Positions 2,426 to 8,904 of a stretch of 10,182 bases of DNA are shown piece by piece. The notes under the pieces were generated by a model. That model did not search any database. It had not been told where the DNA came from and worked only from the letters and a program-made list of their open reading frames with translations. A program made the position numbers and the translations under genes. The stretch covers positions 1 through 10,182 of the forward strand of contig JAUWSP010000050.1 in assembly GCA_030610025.1 (NCBI GenBank), read 5' to 3'. The DNA is from Acidobacteriota bacterium. GTDB lineage: Bacteria > Acidobacteriota > Thermoanaerobaculia > Multivoradales > JAHEKO01. Positions within the stretch are counted from its first letter, which is position 1; each line of letters starts with the position of its first letter.

Positions 2426-2472
2426 GGCGGCGCCTGCTGAAAGGGCTCGCAATGGTAGACTGTGGCGCCGCC
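2426..2472. repeat. 9-bp inverted repeat bracketing the candidate feoA promoter
   Basis: GGCGGCGCC at 2426-2434 is the exact reverse complement of GGCGCCGCC at 2464-2472. Allowing one mismatch the arms extend to 12 bp (TCnGGCGGCGCC). The 29-nt spacer contains the candidate -10 element. The arrangement could be a paired operator or a hairpin at the start of the feoAB transcript. GC-rich chance repeats are also possible in this genome. It does not resemble a Fur box. Confidence 0.45.
2453..2461 (+). promoter_or_regulatory. Candidate extended -10 promoter for feoAB
   Basis: TGGTAGACT is a TGN-extended -10 hexamer (TAGACT against TATAAT). No convincing -35 is present at 16-18 bp, which is common for extended -10 promoters. 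Transcription would start near 2468, giving a leader of about 38 nt before the feoA ATG at 2506. The same TGNTAGA(A/C)T pattern occurs upstream of the M48 protease and HU genes. Confidence 0.4.
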
Positions 2473-2505
2473 AGAAGTTGGCGAACGAGTCGTTCGAGAC
2501 AGCCA

Positions 2506-2808
2506 ATGGACCATCTGGAAATCTCTGCAAGTGATCAAGCCGCGAGATCTGCCGATCTGGGAGACCGGGTGCCCCTCGACCAGATCGAGATCGGGCATTG
2601 CGCCAGGGTTACCGAGGTCGACGCCAGTGAGGCTGACGTCGAGCAGCTGATGGCGATGGGTGTCTGCGTTGGGCGTCGGATCATGCTCATGCAGACCGGT
2701 GACCCGATGATTCTCAAGGTCCTCGGGACCCGAATCGGTGTCTCGGCCAGATTGGCGCGCCACGTCAAGGTACAGCCCTGTCTGGGTGACATGTTCGGCG
2801 AAGGTTGA
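2506..2808 (+). CDS. feoA: FeoA family ferrous iron transport protein
   Basis: FeoA is a small cytoplasmic SH3-like protein that supports Fe(II) uptake by FeoB. The product from this start is 100 residues; the FeoA domain occupies roughly residues 22-94. It shows the family pattern: PLDQIEIGHCARVTEV, then a segment ending in LMAMGVCVGRRI (the usual L-x-x-M-G-hydrophobic-x-x-G motif) and later GDPMILKVLGTRIGVSARLARHVKV (GDP...R...ISL-like ending). An upstream in-frame ATG at 2452 exists, but it lies within the putative promoter -10 and would add 18 residues without family resemblance, so 2506 was chosen despite a poor Shine-Dalgarno. The gene sits directly before feoB and probably overlaps it, the normal feoAB order. 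Identification is strong; the exact start is less so. Confidence 0.9.
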   Translation: MDHLEISASDQAARSADLGDRVPLDQIEIGHCARVTEVDASEADVEQLMAMGVCVGRRIMLMQTGDPMILKVLGTRIGVSARLARHVKVQPCLGDMFGEG

Positions 2809-4864
2809 CTGCCGCTGGCGAGAGGCTCTTCTCATTCCCACGATCCAAGCACCGTTGCCCCCTGGCCGAAAGGCACTCGATGCCGACGAAGTCTGCATCG
2901 CCCTGGTTGGCAACCCCAACGCTGGCAAGACGACGCTGTTCAATGCCCTGACCGGCCTGCGGGCCAAGACGGCAAACTTCCCAGGCACCACGATCGAGCG
3001 CCGGGTTGGCCATACCCGCCTGGCTGAGCACCGGGTCAAGCTGCTCGACCTGCCTGGCCTCTACAGTCTGGCTTCCATTACGCCTGAGGAGCGGCTGGCC
3101 CGGGAGGTGCTTCTCGGTCAGCAAGCCCAACAGTCTCAGCCCCAGGGGATTATTCTGCTGCTGGACGCGACGACCCTGGAGCGTAACCTGTACCTGGCGA
3201 GCCAGGTGCTGGAACTGGGGCTGCCCACGGTCGCAGCTCTCAATATGGTGGACCTGGCCGAGCGCTCGTCCATCGAGATCGACCTGGAGAAGCTCGAGGC
3301 CGAGCTGGGCTGCCCGGTAGTACCGGTGGTGGCCCGCAGTGGCCGAGGGCTCGACATCCTACGGCAGCACCTGGAGAGGATGATCGATCCTGCCGGATCG
3401 TCCCTGGCCAGAACGTCGAGCGAGCCCTTCTGTGATTGCTCGGGTTGCCCCTACAAAGCGCGCTACGACTGGGCCGAGGAGGTCGGGGCTCGCTGCATCA
3501 ACGGCCGGACCACGGCCCACGGAGTCAAGACCGATCGGATCGACGCCGTCCTGACCCATCGGTGGGTCGGGGTGGCGGCCTTCCTGTCGGTCATGTTCGC
3601 GGTCTTCGCGCTGATCTTCTGGGTGGCCCAATACCCGATGGACTGGATCGACGCCGGGTTCGGCTATGTGGGAAGCGTCGTCGGTCGCTGGGTGCCGCCT
3701 GGAGATTTCCGCAGCCTGTTGGTCGACGGTGTCATCGGTGGCGTCGGTGGAGTGTTGGTGTTTCTGCCTCAGATATGCATCCTCTTCTTCTTCCTGGCGC
3801 TACTCGAGGACACCGGCTACCTGGCGCGAGCCGCCTTCGTCATGGACCGGCTGATGCGCCGCGTGGGCCTGCCAGGTAAGGCCTTCGTGCCGATCCTGTC
3901 GGCGCACGCCTGTGCTATTCCGGCCATCATGTCGACCCGGGTCATCGAGGATCGACGCGATCGGCTGGTGACGATCCTTGTCTTGCCGCTGTTCTCTTGT
4001 TCGGCTCGGATCCCGGTCTACACGATGATCACGGCGCTACTGTTTCCGTATCGGCCGGTGCTGGCGGGACTGGTCTTCACTGGGGCCTACACCCTGGGGA
4101 TCGTCGCGGCTCTGATCATGGCCCTGGTCTTCAAGCGGTCGATCCTGCCAGGCGAGTCCAGACCGCTGGTTCTCGAGCTGCCCAGCTACAAGCTGCCGAG
4201 CCTGCGGACCGCCCTCTTGATGACGCTGGACAGAGCCAAGATCTTTGTCAAGCGTGCCGGCACCATCATTCTCGCCGTCTCCATTCTCTTGTGGTTCCTG
4301 GCCTCGTACCCCAGGAGCGAGCCACCAGCCGCCGCTCTGGCCTTGCAGGTAGAGGCTCAGGAGCTGGTGTCGGCGGGCCAGTCGGATTCGGCCTCAGCGC
4401 TCGAAGAGGAGGCGGCTCAGCTCACGGCCCAGGGTAGGCTGGCGCAGTCCCTGGCCGGCCGAGCAGGGCGTGCCATCGAACCGATACTGCGGCCATTGGG
4501 CTTCGACTGGCAGATCGGGATTGGAATCCTGAGCTCCTTCGCGGCCCGTGAGGTGATCGTCTCCACCCTGGCCGTGGTCTATGGAGTGGGTGAGTCCGCT
4601 GTTGAAGAGGATCCGACCTCTCTCTACGACAGCTTGCGCGCCTCGATGCGCTCCGACGGAACTCCTGTCTTCACGACAGCGACGAGTGTCAGCCTGCTGA
4701 TCTTTTATGTTCTGGCCATGCAATGCCTCTCTACGCAGGCGGTGACCCGCAGAGAGACCAACAGTTGGAAATGGCCGATGTTCCAGCTGCTCTACATGAC
4801 GGTGTTGGCCTACACCGTCACCCTTGTCGTGTATCAGGTGTTGCGGACCTGGACCCCGGGCTGA
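2786..4864 (+). CDS. feoB: Ferrous iron transporter FeoB (GTPase-permease)
   Basis: FeoB is the inner-membrane Fe(II) permease with an N-terminal cytoplasmic G domain. From this start it is 692 residues. All G motifs are visible: G1 GNPNAGKT (about 42-49), G2 Thr in FPGTT (65-69), G3 DLPG (88-91), G4 NMVD (153-156) and G5 ARSG (183-186). A cysteine-rich stretch CDCSGC (216-221) follows, before the membrane domain. The membrane domain contains LEDTGYLARAAFVMDRLMRR, a conserved-Cys segment ACAIPAIMSTR where E. coli has GFGCNVP, then FSCSARIPVY, and late GFDWQIGIG...FAAREVIVSTL. A polar, Glu/Ala-rich loop at about 4309-4470 separates membrane segments. The start is uncertain. The frame is open to 2738, but that would overlap feoA by 71 bp; GTG 2786 has no clear Shine-Dalgarno; TTG 2858 would give an N-terminus of normal length. 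No feoC is seen. Confidence 0.93.
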   Translation: MTCSAKVDCRWREALLIPTIQAPLPPGRKALDADEVCIALVGNPNAGKTTLFNALTGLRAKTANFPGTTIERRVGHTRLAEHRVKLLDLPGLYSLASITPEERLAREVLLGQQAQQSQPQGIILLLDATTLERNLYLASQVLELGLPTVAALNMVDLAERSSIEIDLEKLEAELGCPVVPVVARSGRGLDILRQHLERMIDPAGSSLARTSSEPFCDCSGCPYKARYDWAEEVGARCINGRTTAHGVKTDRIDAVLTHRWVGVAAFLSVMFAVFALIFWVAQYPMDWIDAGFGYVGSVVGRWVPPGDFRSLLVDGVIGGVGGVLVFLPQICILFFFLALLEDTGYLARAAFVMDRLMRRVGLPGKAFVPILSAHACAIPAIMSTRVIEDRRDRLVTILVLPLFSCSARIPVYTMITALLFPYRPVLAGLVFTGAYTLGIVAALIMALVFKRSILPGESRPLVLELPSYKLPSLRTALLMTLDRAKIFVKRAGTIILAVSILLWFLASYPRSEPPAAALALQVEAQELVSAGQSDSASALEEEAAQLTAQGRLAQSLAGRAGRAIEPILRPLGFDWQIGIGILSSFAAREVIVSTLAVVYGVGESAVEEDPTSLYDSLRASMRSDGTPVFTTATSVSLLIFYVLAMQCLSTQAVTRRETNSWKWPMFQLLYMTVLAYTVTLVVYQVLRTWTPG

Positions 4865-5445: not shown

Positions 5446-7158
5446 TCAGCTTTCGACGACCATTCGCGCCCGCAGGCGCTCGGCAGCCGGAGACTGCGGG
5501 GCGTAGGTCAGGATCTGCTGGATGCGCTCGATCCCCTTCACGTGGTCGCCAACGCTCTGGTAGAGGATCACCTCTCCGAACAGGGCCTCGGCCAGCTCGT
5601 CGAGTCTCTGACTCACGACTCTCGCCTGACCTCCATCCGGGTACGTCTTCAGATAGGTCGCCCCGTTGGCCAGCTCCTCATACTCGGAGGCCAAGGTCGC
5701 AAGGCGCTGCTCTGCCAGGTCACGGAGCTCCGGGTCCCCTGATTCCAACGCCAGCCGCTGCAGAGCGGAGAGCTCGTCGAGATACGGGGCCAGGCCGCGA
5801 AGCCCTCTGGCCGCACGCTCGCCTGCGTCGCTGTCGGGTGCGGCGGCAAAGGCCTCGAGATAGTACTCCACGGCCTCACTCTGCCGGCCGAGCCGGCTGT
5901 AGGCATTGCCGAGTGCCAGGGCCACGTCGGGCCGCTCCGGAGATTCCGGATAGTTACTGGCGAAGGTCTCCAGGAACTCTGTTTCGAAGATTCCTCCAGC
6001 GAAGGTCTCTACAGCCTTGGGATAGAGCTCACGACGGTATCGGTCGAACGAGGTGACCTCTTCGTCGAGTTGGGCCACGAGTGGGCTTTCCGGGGTCAGC
6101 TGACGAACCTGCTCGAGCTCGGAACGGTATGCGGCGATGAGCCTGCTCCAGTCCCGAGATAGCGGATTCTGACTCTCCAGAACGTCACGCAAAACGTGGA
6201 GCTTCTCCAGTCGCAGCCCATCAGCCGCCGGCCCTTGTGGCCAGGCGATCAACGCTTCCTCTTTGAGGTGTGGAATCAACTCGGGCTCGATCTTCGAGCG
6301 TTCGGCGAAGTCCAGAAGCAGGCCTTGTGTCTTTGCACGATACTCGTCTGCCGAGCTGGGATCCTGAATCTTGAGCAGGTCATCGCGTACGTTGGCGGCC
6401 TGGGCTCGGTCGTCGAAGAAGGGGTGGGTGCGCCAGTATCCGTATTCCTTCGATTGCGGCATATGGGCCAGCATTTTTTCCATCAATTGCTGTGTGCCGT
6501 TGGGATCAAAGCCGGCGGCGGCGGCCAGTCGCTGGCCCTCGTCATCGGCTTCATCCTCGAATTCGCGGCTGTAGCTCCGTAGGAGGAGCTCGCTGATGAC
6601 CGCGCCGGCGGCTGCGGTGCCCTGGATCAGATCCCCAGTCGAATTGCCGCGACCATAGGGGTCCGTAGGTACATCGTTGCGGTTGTTACTTTGACTGGCC
6701 CCGATCATGACGCCTACCAATAACGCCTGGCTCAAGATATTGAGCAGCGTAGCCTTGTGCTGCATCCGTGTCCCGTGTTGCAGCACCACGTGACCGATCT
6801 CGTGGCCCAGGAGGCTTGCCAACATATCGTCGGTCAGGCCAAGGTCGAGCATCCCTCGTGTGATGAAGATCTGGCCACCCGGCAGCGCGAAGGCGTTGGG
6901 CTCCGGCATGTCGGCGAGGTAGAAGGTGTAGGGGTAGTCCTGAAACTTCGATTCCTGGGCGATCCGATAGCCGATGTCGGCGACGCGCTGCATCTCGGCC
7001 GGGTTGTCGTATCTGCCGTAGAAGGCGAGCGCCTGCAGGGCGGCTTTCAGCGTCTTCTCGAACAGTTCCTCTTTGGCGATCTCCTGGGCACCGGCCGGCA
7101 TCGGAGCCAGCCCGAGGAGAAGGCAAGCGAGGACGAGGTGTGTTGCGGCTCTTCTCAT
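5446..7158 (-). CDS. Secreted M48 family zinc metalloprotease with TPR-like C-terminal half
   Basis: This is a 570-residue periplasmic protein of the BepA/YfgC-like M48 group. These proteases degrade or help assemble outer-membrane proteins. A Sec signal peptide is clear at residues 1-24 (basic start, LVLACLLLGLA core, AGA cleavage site); no lipobox is seen. The peptidase domain spans about 30-260. It has HEIGH at 119-123 (two zinc His and the catalytic Glu), and FEDEADDEG at 200-208, where E201 of the ExxAD pattern is the likely third zinc ligand. RTHPFFDDR at 243-251 contains the His corresponding to the BepA regulatory histidine region. Preceding LADMPEPNAFALPGGQIFIT matches the conserved M48 edge strand. 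The C-terminal half is helical with at least one TPR unit (about 411-441, DVALALGNAYSRLGRQSEAV). The ATG start has no obvious Shine-Dalgarno, and a promoter -10 lies only about 15 bp upstream, so a very short leader is possible. A Gly/Asn/Ser-rich segment near 153-178 is probably a flexible loop near the active site. Confidence 0.93.
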   Translation of the reverse strand: MRRAATHLVLACLLLGLAPMPAGAQEIAKEELFEKTLKAALQALAFYGRYDNPAEMQRVADIGYRIAQESKFQDYPYTFYLADMPEPNAFALPGGQIFITRGMLDLGLTDDMLASLLGHEIGHVVLQHGTRMQHKATLLNILSQALLVGVMIGASQSNNRNDVPTDPYGRGNSTGDLIQGTAAAGAVISELLLRSYSREFEDEADDEGQRLAAAAGFDPNGTQQLMEKMLAHMPQSKEYGYWRTHPFFDDRAQAANVRDDLLKIQDPSSADEYRAKTQGLLLDFAERSKIEPELIPHLKEEALIAWPQGPAADGLRLEKLHVLRDVLESQNPLSRDWSRLIAAYRSELEQVRQLTPESPLVAQLDEEVTSFDRYRRELYPKAVETFAGGIFETEFLETFASNYPESPERPDVALALGNAYSRLGRQSEAVEYYLEAFAAAPDSDAGERAARGLRGLAPYLDELSALQRLALESGDPELRDLAEQRLATLASEYEELANGATYLKTYPDGGQARVVSQRLDELAEALFGEVILYQSVGDHVKGIERIQQILTYAPQSPAAERLRARMVVES

Positions 7159-7233: not shown

Positions 7234-7253
7234 GCTCTAAAGGGCTCTAAAGG
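7234..7253. repeat. Tandem 10-bp direct repeat at the end of the DUF502 gene
   Basis: GCTCTAAAGG occurs twice in a row without a mismatch (7234-7243 and 7244-7253). The second copy carries the DUF502 stop codon (7247-7249 on the minus strand). It probably arose by a slippage duplication. Confidence 0.8.
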
Positions 7254-7945
7254 GGAGGACTGCTTTGCAGGGTCTTCGGTCCTGTCATGTCGGGTAGCAG
7301 TATGCCCCCCGAGATCACCATCCGAATTCCCTGCTCGACCGAGATGGGCATGGGAATGGCCTCGCTGCGTGGTACCAGGAGAAGAAAGCCGCTGGTCGGG
7401 TTGGGGGTGGTCGGAACGAACACCAGCAGGATGTCGGAGGTCTTGGCATGTAGATTCGGCCAGCGGGCCGACTTGGTAACGAAGGCCAGGGCGAAGATAT
7501 TGTCCTTGGGGTACTCGATCAGCACGACCCGCTGGAAGGCCTCGCTTTGATCGAAGGAGACGGCCTCGAGCACTCCCTTGGTCGCCGAATAGATCGATTT
7601 GGCGACCGGAATTCTGCAGATCAGGGCCTCGGCACCATGAATCAGCCGCCGACCCACGACGTTGGTGGAAAGCCAGCCCAGGAGTAGAACCACCATTAGG
7701 GTCAGCACCAGGCCGAGTCCAGGAATGTGAAAGCCCGGAAGATAGACACCGATGGCCTTGTCGATGACGGGGGTGAAGATCCCGTCCATGAAGTCGAAGA
7801 TCTGCTTGAGAATGTAGACGGTCAGGGTGACCGGCACCAGAATCACCAGACCGGTTACGAGAACCCGCTTGAAGCGGGTACGTGCACGCGGCTTCGAGTG
7901 AGCCCCTTCAGGGGCGGCCTGGGGCTGTTCCAGCGAGTCAGTCAC
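7247..7945 (-). CDS. DUF502 family membrane protein
   Basis: This 232-residue protein matches the pattern of the DUF502 family, whose biochemical function is unknown. An N-terminal basic, probably cytoplasmic tail (SKPRARTRFKR) precedes hydrophobic segment 1 (about 28-48, RVLVTGLVILVPVTLTVYIL). A second segment lies at about 76-94 (GLGLVLTLMVVLLLGWLST). After it comes the family's conserved RIPVAKSIYSATKGV (111-125), then a beta-rich soluble part with FVPTTPNPTSGFLLLVPRSE. The start is GTG at 7945 with a weak Shine-Dalgarno; no better ATG precedes the first membrane helix. The palindromic element at 7994-8159 ends only 48 bp upstream, so it lies where the promoter or 5' leader should be. A poor -10-like GATACT sits just upstream of the GTG. 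Protease and TPR genes follow on the same strand, giving an envelope-themed group. Confidence 0.9.
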   Translation of the reverse strand: MTDSLEQPQAAPEGAHSKPRARTRFKRVLVTGLVILVPVTLTVYILKQIFDFMDGIFTPVIDKAIGVYLPGFHIPGLGLVLTLMVVLLLGWLSTNVVGRRLIHGAEALICRIPVAKSIYSATKGVLEAVSFDQSEAFQRVVLIEYPKDNIFALAFVTKSARWPNLHAKTSDILLVFVPTTPNPTSGFLLLVPRSEAIPMPISVEQGIRMVISGGILLPDMTGPKTLQSSPPL

Positions 7946-7993
7946 CTGCCTAGAGTATCAAGGGAGTGAAGGCTGTGGGGTAGAGTTGAGCCC

Positions 7994-8159
7994 CTAGTGT
8001 CCCGTGCGGTAAGTTCGCTACCTACCTCGCGGGTTCTTCCCGCCGCTGGCGGCGTTGCGCCTCCTCACCATAGTCCCGCTATGCTTGCGTCGGCGCGCCT
8101 TGCCAGCAACGTGAAGCCCACCGCGATCTAGGCAGCGAACTTACCGCACGAGACACTAG
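7994..8159. mobile_element. MITE-like / large REP-type palindromic element, 166 bp
   Basis: The stretch is an imperfect palindrome along its whole length. The 39-bp terminal inverted repeats (7994-8032 and 8121-8159) match at 35 of 39 positions, including the uninterrupted 17-mer CGTGCGGTAAGTTCGCT. Both ends are CTAG. Inside, further matching blocks pair in order: CTTC (8036-8039/8113-8116), GCTGGC (8045-8050/8102-8107), GCGCC (8057-8061/8092-8096) and, at the exact centre, CATAG/CTATG (8069-8073/8079-8083) around a 5-nt loop. No open reading frame of its own is credible. Terminal repeats, small size and intergenic position fit a non-autonomous miniature transposable element mobilised in trans, or a large palindromic repeat family. 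CTAG at both ends could be a 4-bp target duplication, but since CTAG is itself palindromic this cannot be separated from the terminal repeat. Whether other copies exist in the genome cannot be seen here. Confidence 0.75.
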
Positions 8160-8314: not shown

Positions 8315-8358
8315 GACAAAAGCCCCGCCACGGAGCGATGTGCTCCGCAGCGGGGCTT
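8315..8358 (-). terminator. Intrinsic terminator of the HU gene
   Basis: On the minus strand a perfect 9-bp stem AAGCCCCGC/GCGGGGCTT encloses a 2x2 mismatch and a further 6-bp stem (CGGAGC/GCTCCG) with a 5-nt loop, followed by TTTTGT. It starts 22 bp beyond the HU stop codon. The stability and U-tract make it a textbook Rho-independent terminator. It should insulate the DUF502 group from HU transcription. Confidence 0.93.
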
Positions 8359-8380: not shown

Positions 8381-8674
8381 CTACTCGGCAACCCGGTCCT
8401 TCAGACCCTTGCCAGGCTTGAAGAACGGGTAGTTCTTGGCAGCGATCATGATGGTCTGGCCGGTGGCTGGGTTACGGCCCTGCCGGGCGGCTCGACTCTT
8501 CGTGCCGAAGGTTCCGAAGCCAGGGATCTGGACCTTTCCGCCGCCATCCAGCTCGACAGCGATGATGCCGGTTCCGGGCTTGGTATCGAAGATCATGGAG
8601 ACAATCTCCAGCGCCTTCGCCTGCGACAGGTCACACTTGCTGGCGAGCTTCTCGGCCATTTCAGTCTTGTTCAT
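8381..8674 (-). CDS. hup: HU/IHF family DNA-binding protein
   Basis: This is a 97-residue histone-like nucleoid protein that bends and compacts DNA as a dimer. The family signature is plain: MNKTEMAEKLASK at the N-terminus, PGFGTF at 51-56, then the beta-arm with RAARQGRNPATGQTI (61-75), including the RNPATG tip and intercalating proline P69, and the C-terminal FKPGKGLKDRV (85-95). The region before PGFGTF (TKPGTGIIAVELDGGGKVQI) is about seven residues longer than in E. coli HU, probably lengthening the dimerisation helix-strand turn. The frame is open to a GTG at 8680, but the ATG at 8674 has GAGGAG at a 5-nt spacing and the GTG falls inside that Shine-Dalgarno, so 8674 is chosen. It is monocistronic: own promoter, long leader and a strong terminator. 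Whether it is HU or an IHF subunit cannot be settled; HU is favoured. Confidence 0.95.
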   Translation of the reverse strand: MNKTEMAEKLASKCDLSQAKALEIVSMIFDTKPGTGIIAVELDGGGKVQIPGFGTFGTKSRAARQGRNPATGQTIMIAAKNYPFFKPGKGLKDRVAE

Positions 8675-8904
8675 TTCCACTCCTCAGGTTTCTTGATCGG
8701 GAAGAGGTCCCTGATGGACCTGTTCTCCCCCCAGGTCAAAGATTTGTCGACGTCCTTCTTGCCGACGGTGCATGAGTAACTGCTGTTCTGGTCAATCGAC
8801 CTCTCTGGTTCTGGAGGGTCAGAGGACCCTCGGGTTGGAGCGCTGCCGTTGAGTGAGTTCGAAAGTCCTCTTCGGGCATACCCCTGATCCTTCGAGATGG
8901 CGAG
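8675..8904 (-). promoter_or_regulatory. Long structured 5' leader of the HU gene
   Basis: About 220 nt separate the putative promoter from the HU start. The leader holds a perfect 7-bp stem with a 4-nt loop (GAGGGTC/GACCCTC at 8814-8820 and 8825-8831) and a 5-bp stem (GGTCC/GGACC at 8706-8710 and 8716-8720) just before the ribosome-binding site. No known riboswitch class is recognised. Autoregulation or translational control is possible but not shown. Confidence 0.4.
8680..8685 (-). promoter_or_regulatory. Ribosome-binding site of the HU gene
   Basis: GAGGAG on the minus strand, 5 nt before the ATG at 8674. It decides the start, because the alternative upstream GTG (8680) overlaps this site. 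Confidence 0.85.

Follow-up and report, generated by a model that had tools for sequence, protein, structure and literature searches.

A multi-copy palindromic element of Acidobacteriota with IS630-type ends, a conserved core and a one-sided fold

The 166-bp palindrome analysed in this work is one copy of a family of short elements which, judging from their sequences, are very probably non-autonomous cut-and-paste elements (MITEs) of the IS630/Tc1-mariner type, moved in trans. The family has numerous copies, ends that match those of IS630 elements, CTAG as insertion target, one member that splits a gene with a recognizable single-CTAG pre-insertion site, and no conservation of position; we infer from these features that excision and joining are performed by an IS630 enzyme. 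The palindrome lies in a 10,182-bp stretch of an Acidobacteriota genome (assembly GCA_030610025.1, contig JAUWSP010000050.1), named here the window, which is contig C278 of a 594-contig draft of 3.35 Mb that is 84.6% complete. The original prediction, made from the window alone, saw a dispersed MITE-like family moved in trans by a transposase or a RAYT. The further copies and the matching IS630 ends support the first part, so that the MITE reading was right in kind, and the RAYT option is not supported. What is new is the breadth of the family, its fixed length, the combination of a single core with exchangeable ends, and the better folding of one strand.

An inverted-repeat search placed the near-perfect palindrome with 39-bp ends exactly where it had been predicted (Table 1). 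Its arms (7994-8032 and 8121-8159, 39 nt each) are complementary at 35 of 39 positions (90%) and exceed every other inverted repeat of the window, of which the largest measures 28 nt. The central CATAG/CTATG stem with its 5-nt loop was recovered as well, and the unit can indeed fold as one long hairpin: the + strand gives a single structure of -99.7 kcal/mol (z -11.7), compared with a mean of -55.2 kcal/mol (sd 3.8) for 200 dinucleotide shuffles, none of which is as low as the native sequence. The - strand folds more strongly, at -121.3 kcal/mol. As had also been proposed, the unit is non-coding, short and bounded by terminal inverted repeats, with several copies, and it is located between a terminator-like hairpin and a gene start. 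Two features went beyond that first view: insertion targets the CTAG present at each terminus, and a stretch of ~50 bp centred on the apex (8050-8102) is incompletely symmetric and conserved between families. The full-length match of the window element to our covariance model scores 175.5 bits. No promoter was detected inside the element by a simple scan. Between the element and DUF502 (window 7949-7990), the stretches GCCTAGAGTATCA and TAGAGT are kept in the genus relatives G001 and G002 and possibly represent the DUF502 promoter. Elsewhere, the window carries a FeoA-FeoB iron-transport pair (2452-4864), in which the FeoB frame as listed starts within feoA.

Table 1. Features of the palindromic element and its surroundings in the window
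Feature	Coordinates	Strand	Remarks
Whole element	7994..8159	+	166 bp, F orientation; core GCGTTGCG...CGCCTTG on + strand
Left CTAG, insertion target	7994..7997	.	end statistics; empty site of copy L027
Left terminal repeat CTAGTGTCCCGTGCGGTAAGTTCGCT	7994..8019	+	positions 5-26 agree with IS630-family element L102 at 19/22
Conserved asymmetric core	8050..8102	+	common to families with different arms; profile of 119 unique sequences
Apical stem-loop	8069..8083	+	CATAG 8069-8073, loop TCCCG 8074-8078, CTATG 8079-8083
Right terminal repeat	8134..8159	-	CTAGTGTCTCGTGCGGTAAGTTCGCT read on - strand; right CTAG 8156-8159
DUF502 gene	7247..7945	-	Pfam PF04367, E 1.2e-30; downstream of element; start 7945, 48 bp from element
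Terminator-like hairpin	8320-8358		after HU-type gene; element between hairpin and DUF502 gene
HU-type DNA-binding protein gene	8381..8680	-	Pfam PF00216, E 1.5e-26; upstream of element

Besides the window's copy, the draft genome of origin (G000) contains six others of the family, whole or partial (C544, C432, C1, C95, C254 and C53). A contig end cuts four of these (C432, C1, C95, C254), and since copies stop at contig ends, their number in the draft is undercounted. A second family is found on C19, C432, C559 and C129; each member is 166 bp long, with other arms and with ends CTAGTGGACTGTAACG or near it, and carries the same ~53-bp apex as the window's family. Single ends and short derivatives of 37-47 bp are also present, and the end pattern occurs 37 times versus nine times for a reversed control pattern. 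The mini-palindromes (C295:6474-6520, C431:5705-5742 and 6482-6518, C543:3162-3199) consist of two ends only; they resemble products of internal deletion and might be misidentified as REPs. Both genus relatives have kept DUF502 and part of its upstream sequence, and the element is absent from the window's site in both. A full-length element of G001 is situated at L278:2247-2412, just past the 3' end of the DUF502 match; the window's copy flanks the gene on its other side.

Beyond the genus, a strict core pattern retrieved 21 stretches from the species-genome collection, five in MAGs titled Acidobacteria, Acidobacteriota or Thermoanaerobaculia and 16 in one MAG titled Desulfuromonadales LH_M60 (JAGXHK, our G435). 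The order in these record titles is also the host group of Chunjie, a bacterial MITE considered below. In the window's phylum, a covariance model built from 18 copies matched 84 of 396 genomes (at most seven candidates scored per genome), most of the listed matches being full-length and some partial; it also matched 32 of 297 genomes drawn from the phylum of G435. The latter group appears to be a phylum other than the window's, as inferred from the 52 of 297 genomes listed, which share none with the earlier draws; this fits the NCBI title. Nine copies fetched from it have the same build. A search of seven chosen genomes, which scored more candidates and in which some matches are one place counted on both strands, gave 20 matches in G000, 20 in G001, 17 in G006, 70 in G003, seven in G038, 29 in G086 and 51 in G435. 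LH_M60 is a small MAG (2.2 Mb) with many matches at contig ends, and per base it is the densest of the seven. Two genomes of its phylum, G478 and G514, hold longer composite palindromes on a related core (L337-L341), with two cores ~100 bp apart in L341. Carriage by phages or plasmids was rejected, as no element match was obtained in phages and plasmids (blastn, E 0.01) or, with two strict patterns, in viral contigs.

The anatomy of the element was deduced from 132 copies of 49 genomes, namely 24 copies from the first loci, 29 from the search in the window's phylum and 79 from 80 further regions. All 80 of these fetched regions matched the covariance model. Copies lacking a usable pair of ends (e.g. 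L034, L037, L038 and those truncated at a contig end) were left out, as was L270, itself truncated in this way. The length is 165-168 bp in 117 of the 132 copies. The ends (CTAGTGnCCYGT) and the core (CnGCGTTGCnCCTCCT and TCGnCGCGCCTTGCC; GCGTTGC...GCCTTG) have a high information content and the arms a low one, with minima at about positions 25-32 and 129-144. The arm sequences diverge yet stay paired: across an alignment (A5) of 45 hand-chosen sequences, nearly one per genome, 30 of 37 pairs have changed on both sides and 90.9% of cells are paired. The covariation score reaches 0.600; 500 shuffles give 0.150 ± 0.009 and never equal it, and sliding the partner yields no more than 0.139. Covarying pairs include seven of eight in the inner arms (helix 3) and all five of the apex (helix 5), where every pair of the stem at 8069..8083 has changed on both sides between families. 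As inner arms and apex covary too, the covariation is not merely the symmetry of transposase sites. A single copy at a conserved position with covarying stems had been named beforehand as the signature of a structured RNA or local hairpin. Copy number and position speak otherwise, the latter because G001 and G002 have no element at the site, while the covariation is there; mobile repeat and structured element are thus not alternatives here.

Some loci deserve separate mention. A family of G003 (L336:200-366) has ends CTAGACCAGCG, a length of 167 bp and the same core; it was met at six fetched loci (L331-L336), five of which lie within ~20 bp of a contig end. At L082:713-877, a second, partial element directly adjoins the first with a CTAG in common, and L097 and L102 likewise have an IS630 abutting an element. 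Integron attC sites are marked by RYYYAAC ... GTTRRRY core sites near their two ends; this pattern occurs in none of the 132 copies on either strand, and an attC site was rejected.

Both ends carry CTAG in 90 of the 132 copies, the first four bases being CTAG in 104 and the last four in 101; a single copy starts with GTAG. In 102 copies both ends contain TA; eight of these vary at the outer base and four at the inner base, and in no end pair is the same non-CTAG 4-mer present twice. IS630-type elements are described as duplicating a TA target (PMC2170065), and the end variants lean towards a TA duplication over a 4-bp CTAG duplication. By analogy with IS630, TA in the left CTAG of the window element would be the duplicated target and G the first base of the element. 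In copy L027, the insertion divides a cysteine-desulfurase-like gene at what had been a single CTAG: removal of the element and one CTAG restores a 427-codon ORF that aligns gap-free across the junction with the cysteine desulfurase 1t3i. The single CTAG so restored fits a duplication of either TA or CTAG. ORFs run through 64 of 123 restored sites, a count that is uninformative in GC-rich DNA and was not used. With simple gene calling, the terminal CTAG coincides with the TAG stop of a neighbouring gene in 56 of the 132 copies. Where both neighbours were called, 32 pairs are convergent, eight divergent and 49 co-directional.

A transposase whose terminal repeats match CTAGTGTC had been suggested as something to look for, and such transposases exist in IS630-family elements. 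PF13358 (IS630) genes were detected in 10 of 40 genomes searched, and a matched CTAGTG...CACTAG pair surrounds the gene at only three of 13 loci (L097, L098 and L102). The IS630 at L102 (G038) comprises a 363-codon ORF (PF13358, E 1e-24) flanked by CTAGTGTACCGTGCGGTTAATTCGCT and CTAGTGTCCCGTGCGGCTAATTCGCT; its ends match the window's family, and those of L097 (G003) match the second family. A profile of the three transposases matches 43 of 396 genomes at E 1e-40. Inverted ends of at least 17/28 bases, 1.1-1.2 kb apart, were found at 21 of 30 fetched IS630 loci (one of the 21 being L098 again) by a scan that required CTAG or TTAG at the ends, and were not seen at the other nine. When 24 IS630 elements were compared with 260 MITE ends, which are not mutually independent, 65 MITE ends matched an IS630 end at 18/22 or more (column-shuffle null: mean 2.4, maximum 15) and 28 at 19/22 or more (null: mean 0.3, maximum 5). 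In G038, the IS630 and the partly decayed MITE L037 agree at 25 of the first 26 bases. Agreement within one genome is not the rule: of six genomes in which the ends of co-resident IS630 and MITEs were compared, only G419 reaches 16/22 or more (18/22), with 14 in G086 and at most 12 in G003, G020, G137 and G362. Sixteen genomes hold both the IS630 subfamily and the element (odds ratio 2.5, p 0.0099, with two 396-genome draws taken as one set). IS481-type transposition, which uses CTAG targets, was an early candidate that was set aside once the IS630 ends matched.

No PF13358 gene was found in the incomplete drafts of the window's genome and of its genus relatives G001 and G002, and the profile of the L097/L098/L102 transposases has no match in G000. 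The IS630 partner may have been lost from the window's genome; alternatively, it may be missing from a draft that is incomplete and breaks in repeats. Stranded MITEs with no matching transposase in the same genome are known. Ordinary MITEs derive from a single insertion sequence by internal deletion. Such an origin from IS630 was rejected: in 32 IS630 loci the model detected no internal element and just two neighbouring ones with a common CTAG, in G003 and G038, where the IS630 abuts the palindromic element. An interior common to different end families is not explained by a plain MITE origin. In the mechanism that we propose, the IS630 transposase of an autonomous element would bind the ~26-bp ends, cut out the 166-bp unit and join it to the TA within a CTAG target. 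Duplication of TA upon joining would leave the fresh copy framed by CTAG, and insertion at a CTAG overlapping a TAG stop codon would keep the reading frame intact.

The two strands of the element are not equivalent in folding. Among 119 unique sequences (from 130 copies of 155-172 bp), the R strand, opposite to the + strand, folds better as RNA in 116 (mean -103.1 versus -88.0 kcal/mol) and in 113 with DNA parameters; all nine copies from the phylum of G435 behave in the same way. Because copies share ancestry, they were grouped into 24 arm families, among which R is better in 21 for the arms alone, 20 for the outer arms and 18 for the core alone. A-C mismatches prevail over G-T in paired columns of the + strand (G-U on R) in 38 genomes versus three, with five ties. 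At the level of families, this bias reaches significance only for the inner arms (11 to 1); the outer arms give 12 to 6 (p 0.24) and the apex gives 5 to 1 (p 0.22). Recent within-family changes on the F strand comprise 46 C>T and 38 G>A, i.e. no G>A excess, and recent one-sided pair changes (A-C 47, G-T 34) lean mildly in the direction of the standing bias. A mutational strand bias is disfavoured as the cause by the missing G>A excess, though the one-sided pair changes lean mildly its way. With respect to co-directional neighbours, orientation is near even, R being sense in 21 copies and antisense in 28. Our reading is that selection favours a folded R strand within the lineage of moving copies and not in host transcripts, with base composition as a serious rival.

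Why the interior is conserved is a question on which we hold two accounts, each at somewhat less than even probability. The element may need its whole fixed-length hairpin, with the conserved core, as a folded single strand, either RNA or displaced DNA. The competing account keeps the same IS630 MITE and regards the core as a site in double-stranded DNA only, for instance for a bending protein that brings together the ends of a short stiff DNA, with the strand bias as a by-product of base composition. A fixed length near 166 bp agrees with a geometric limit on the synapsis of the ends, transposition of the IS630 type is described as a double-strand reaction (PMC2170065), and C and T outnumber G and A in the + strand consensus, which alone favours G-U on the other strand over A-C mismatches. 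However, the apical stem changes in a compensatory manner instead of being fixed in sequence, the arms inside the ends covary, and the one-sided mismatch bias is absent from the IS630 ends themselves (GT 32, AC 29).

Extending the folded-strand account, we tentatively picture a hybrid parasite. Its centre would be an ancient one-stranded hairpin of fixed length, present as RNA or as displaced single-stranded DNA, which contains the conserved asymmetric core and on which the element depends for its own spread; the DNA-transposon ends around it would have been adapted to one IS630 transposase or another. If this rather speculative picture holds, selection might act on the lineage of moving copies and not on the host site. 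Orientation is near even and recent base changes are not in excess in the required direction, yet R remains the better strand in nearly all copies, in 21 of the 24 arm families and in every copy from the apparent second phylum.

Two further explanations fare far worse. It is very improbable that the palindrome is a REP/BIME or REPIN which a Y1 (RAYT) transposase moves as a single-stranded hairpin, cleaving at CTAG: the long hairpin, the better folding of one strand, the Y1 genes of 50 of 58 genomes of the order (its own included) and a CTAG joint identical to that left by single-strand transposition would suit it, but none of 30 fetched Y1 loci, a part of all Y1 matches, has the core or a CTAGTG...CACTAG pair, the element-rich G006 and G015 have no Y1 match, and the ends resemble those of IS630 far above the null. 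REP tags are given as GTAG or CGTC (PMC3733652), and the element ends in CTAG instead. Equally improbable is a host structured RNA or local regulatory hairpin that is not primarily mobile, since the strong covariation of helices 3 and 5, the core conserved in two genome sets and the consistently better-folded strand are set against an element that is multi-copy, missing from the window's site in two relatives, near even in orientation and, in one copy, inserted in a gene, and for which Rfam yields no family at gathering score and just three microRNA-precursor families (27.6-39.3 bits versus 110-268).

We recognized no paper describing the window's family in the open-licence literature, which is compatible with the earlier suggestion that it may be undescribed. 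From the descriptions consulted, its closest known element is RUP of Streptococcus pneumoniae, which together with IS630-Spn1 offers a short non-coding multi-copy unit with IS630-like ends and TA targets (PMC2229807). RUP differs by its length of 107 bp and its description from one species (PMC2229807), whereas the window's family measures 165-168 bp, is almost fully palindromic, sits at CTAG, spans two apparently different phyla and combines several end families with one core. ERIC/IRU and Correia/NEMIS are MITEs of ~100-200 bp with TA at their ends and transcripts that fold as long stem-loops; they are listed for enterobacteria and Neisseria, and the passages on them describe no apex common to different end families (PMC2229807). 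YPAL/RU-2 of Yersinia is similar in size (~168 bp), palindromic and known with empty sites, but is described with no TA at its ends, target duplications of 3-26 bp and internal inverted repeats (PMC2229807). Chunjie of Geobacter uraniireducens is likewise a bacterial MITE, and differs, on a comparison by description, in its 178-235 bp (PMC10969869). The main text of that 2024 review of prokaryotic MITEs contains neither "IS630" nor "Acidobacteri" (PMC10969869). Finally, REP/BIME/REPIN sequences with their RAYT are also dispersed palindromes moved in trans, but they have GTAG/CGTC tags and a Y1 transposase; nearly all ends of the pooled copies lack such a tag, and the 30 Y1 loci fetched showed no link to the element.

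To conclude, the usual view of MITEs is that of short-lived remnants, each left by internal deletion of one insertion sequence. If our interpretation is true, a fixed-length, one-core palindromic MITE present in apparently two phyla, with ends that differ between families and match different IS630 transposases, would amount to a persistent lineage of parasites in its own right. As the element breaks draft assemblies, genomes that harbour it are fragmented and its copies undercounted. The use of CTAG at stop codons offers a neat case of reading-frame-sparing insertion. Besides, the conserved core and the covarying arms make a folded-strand role in IS630-type movement testable.
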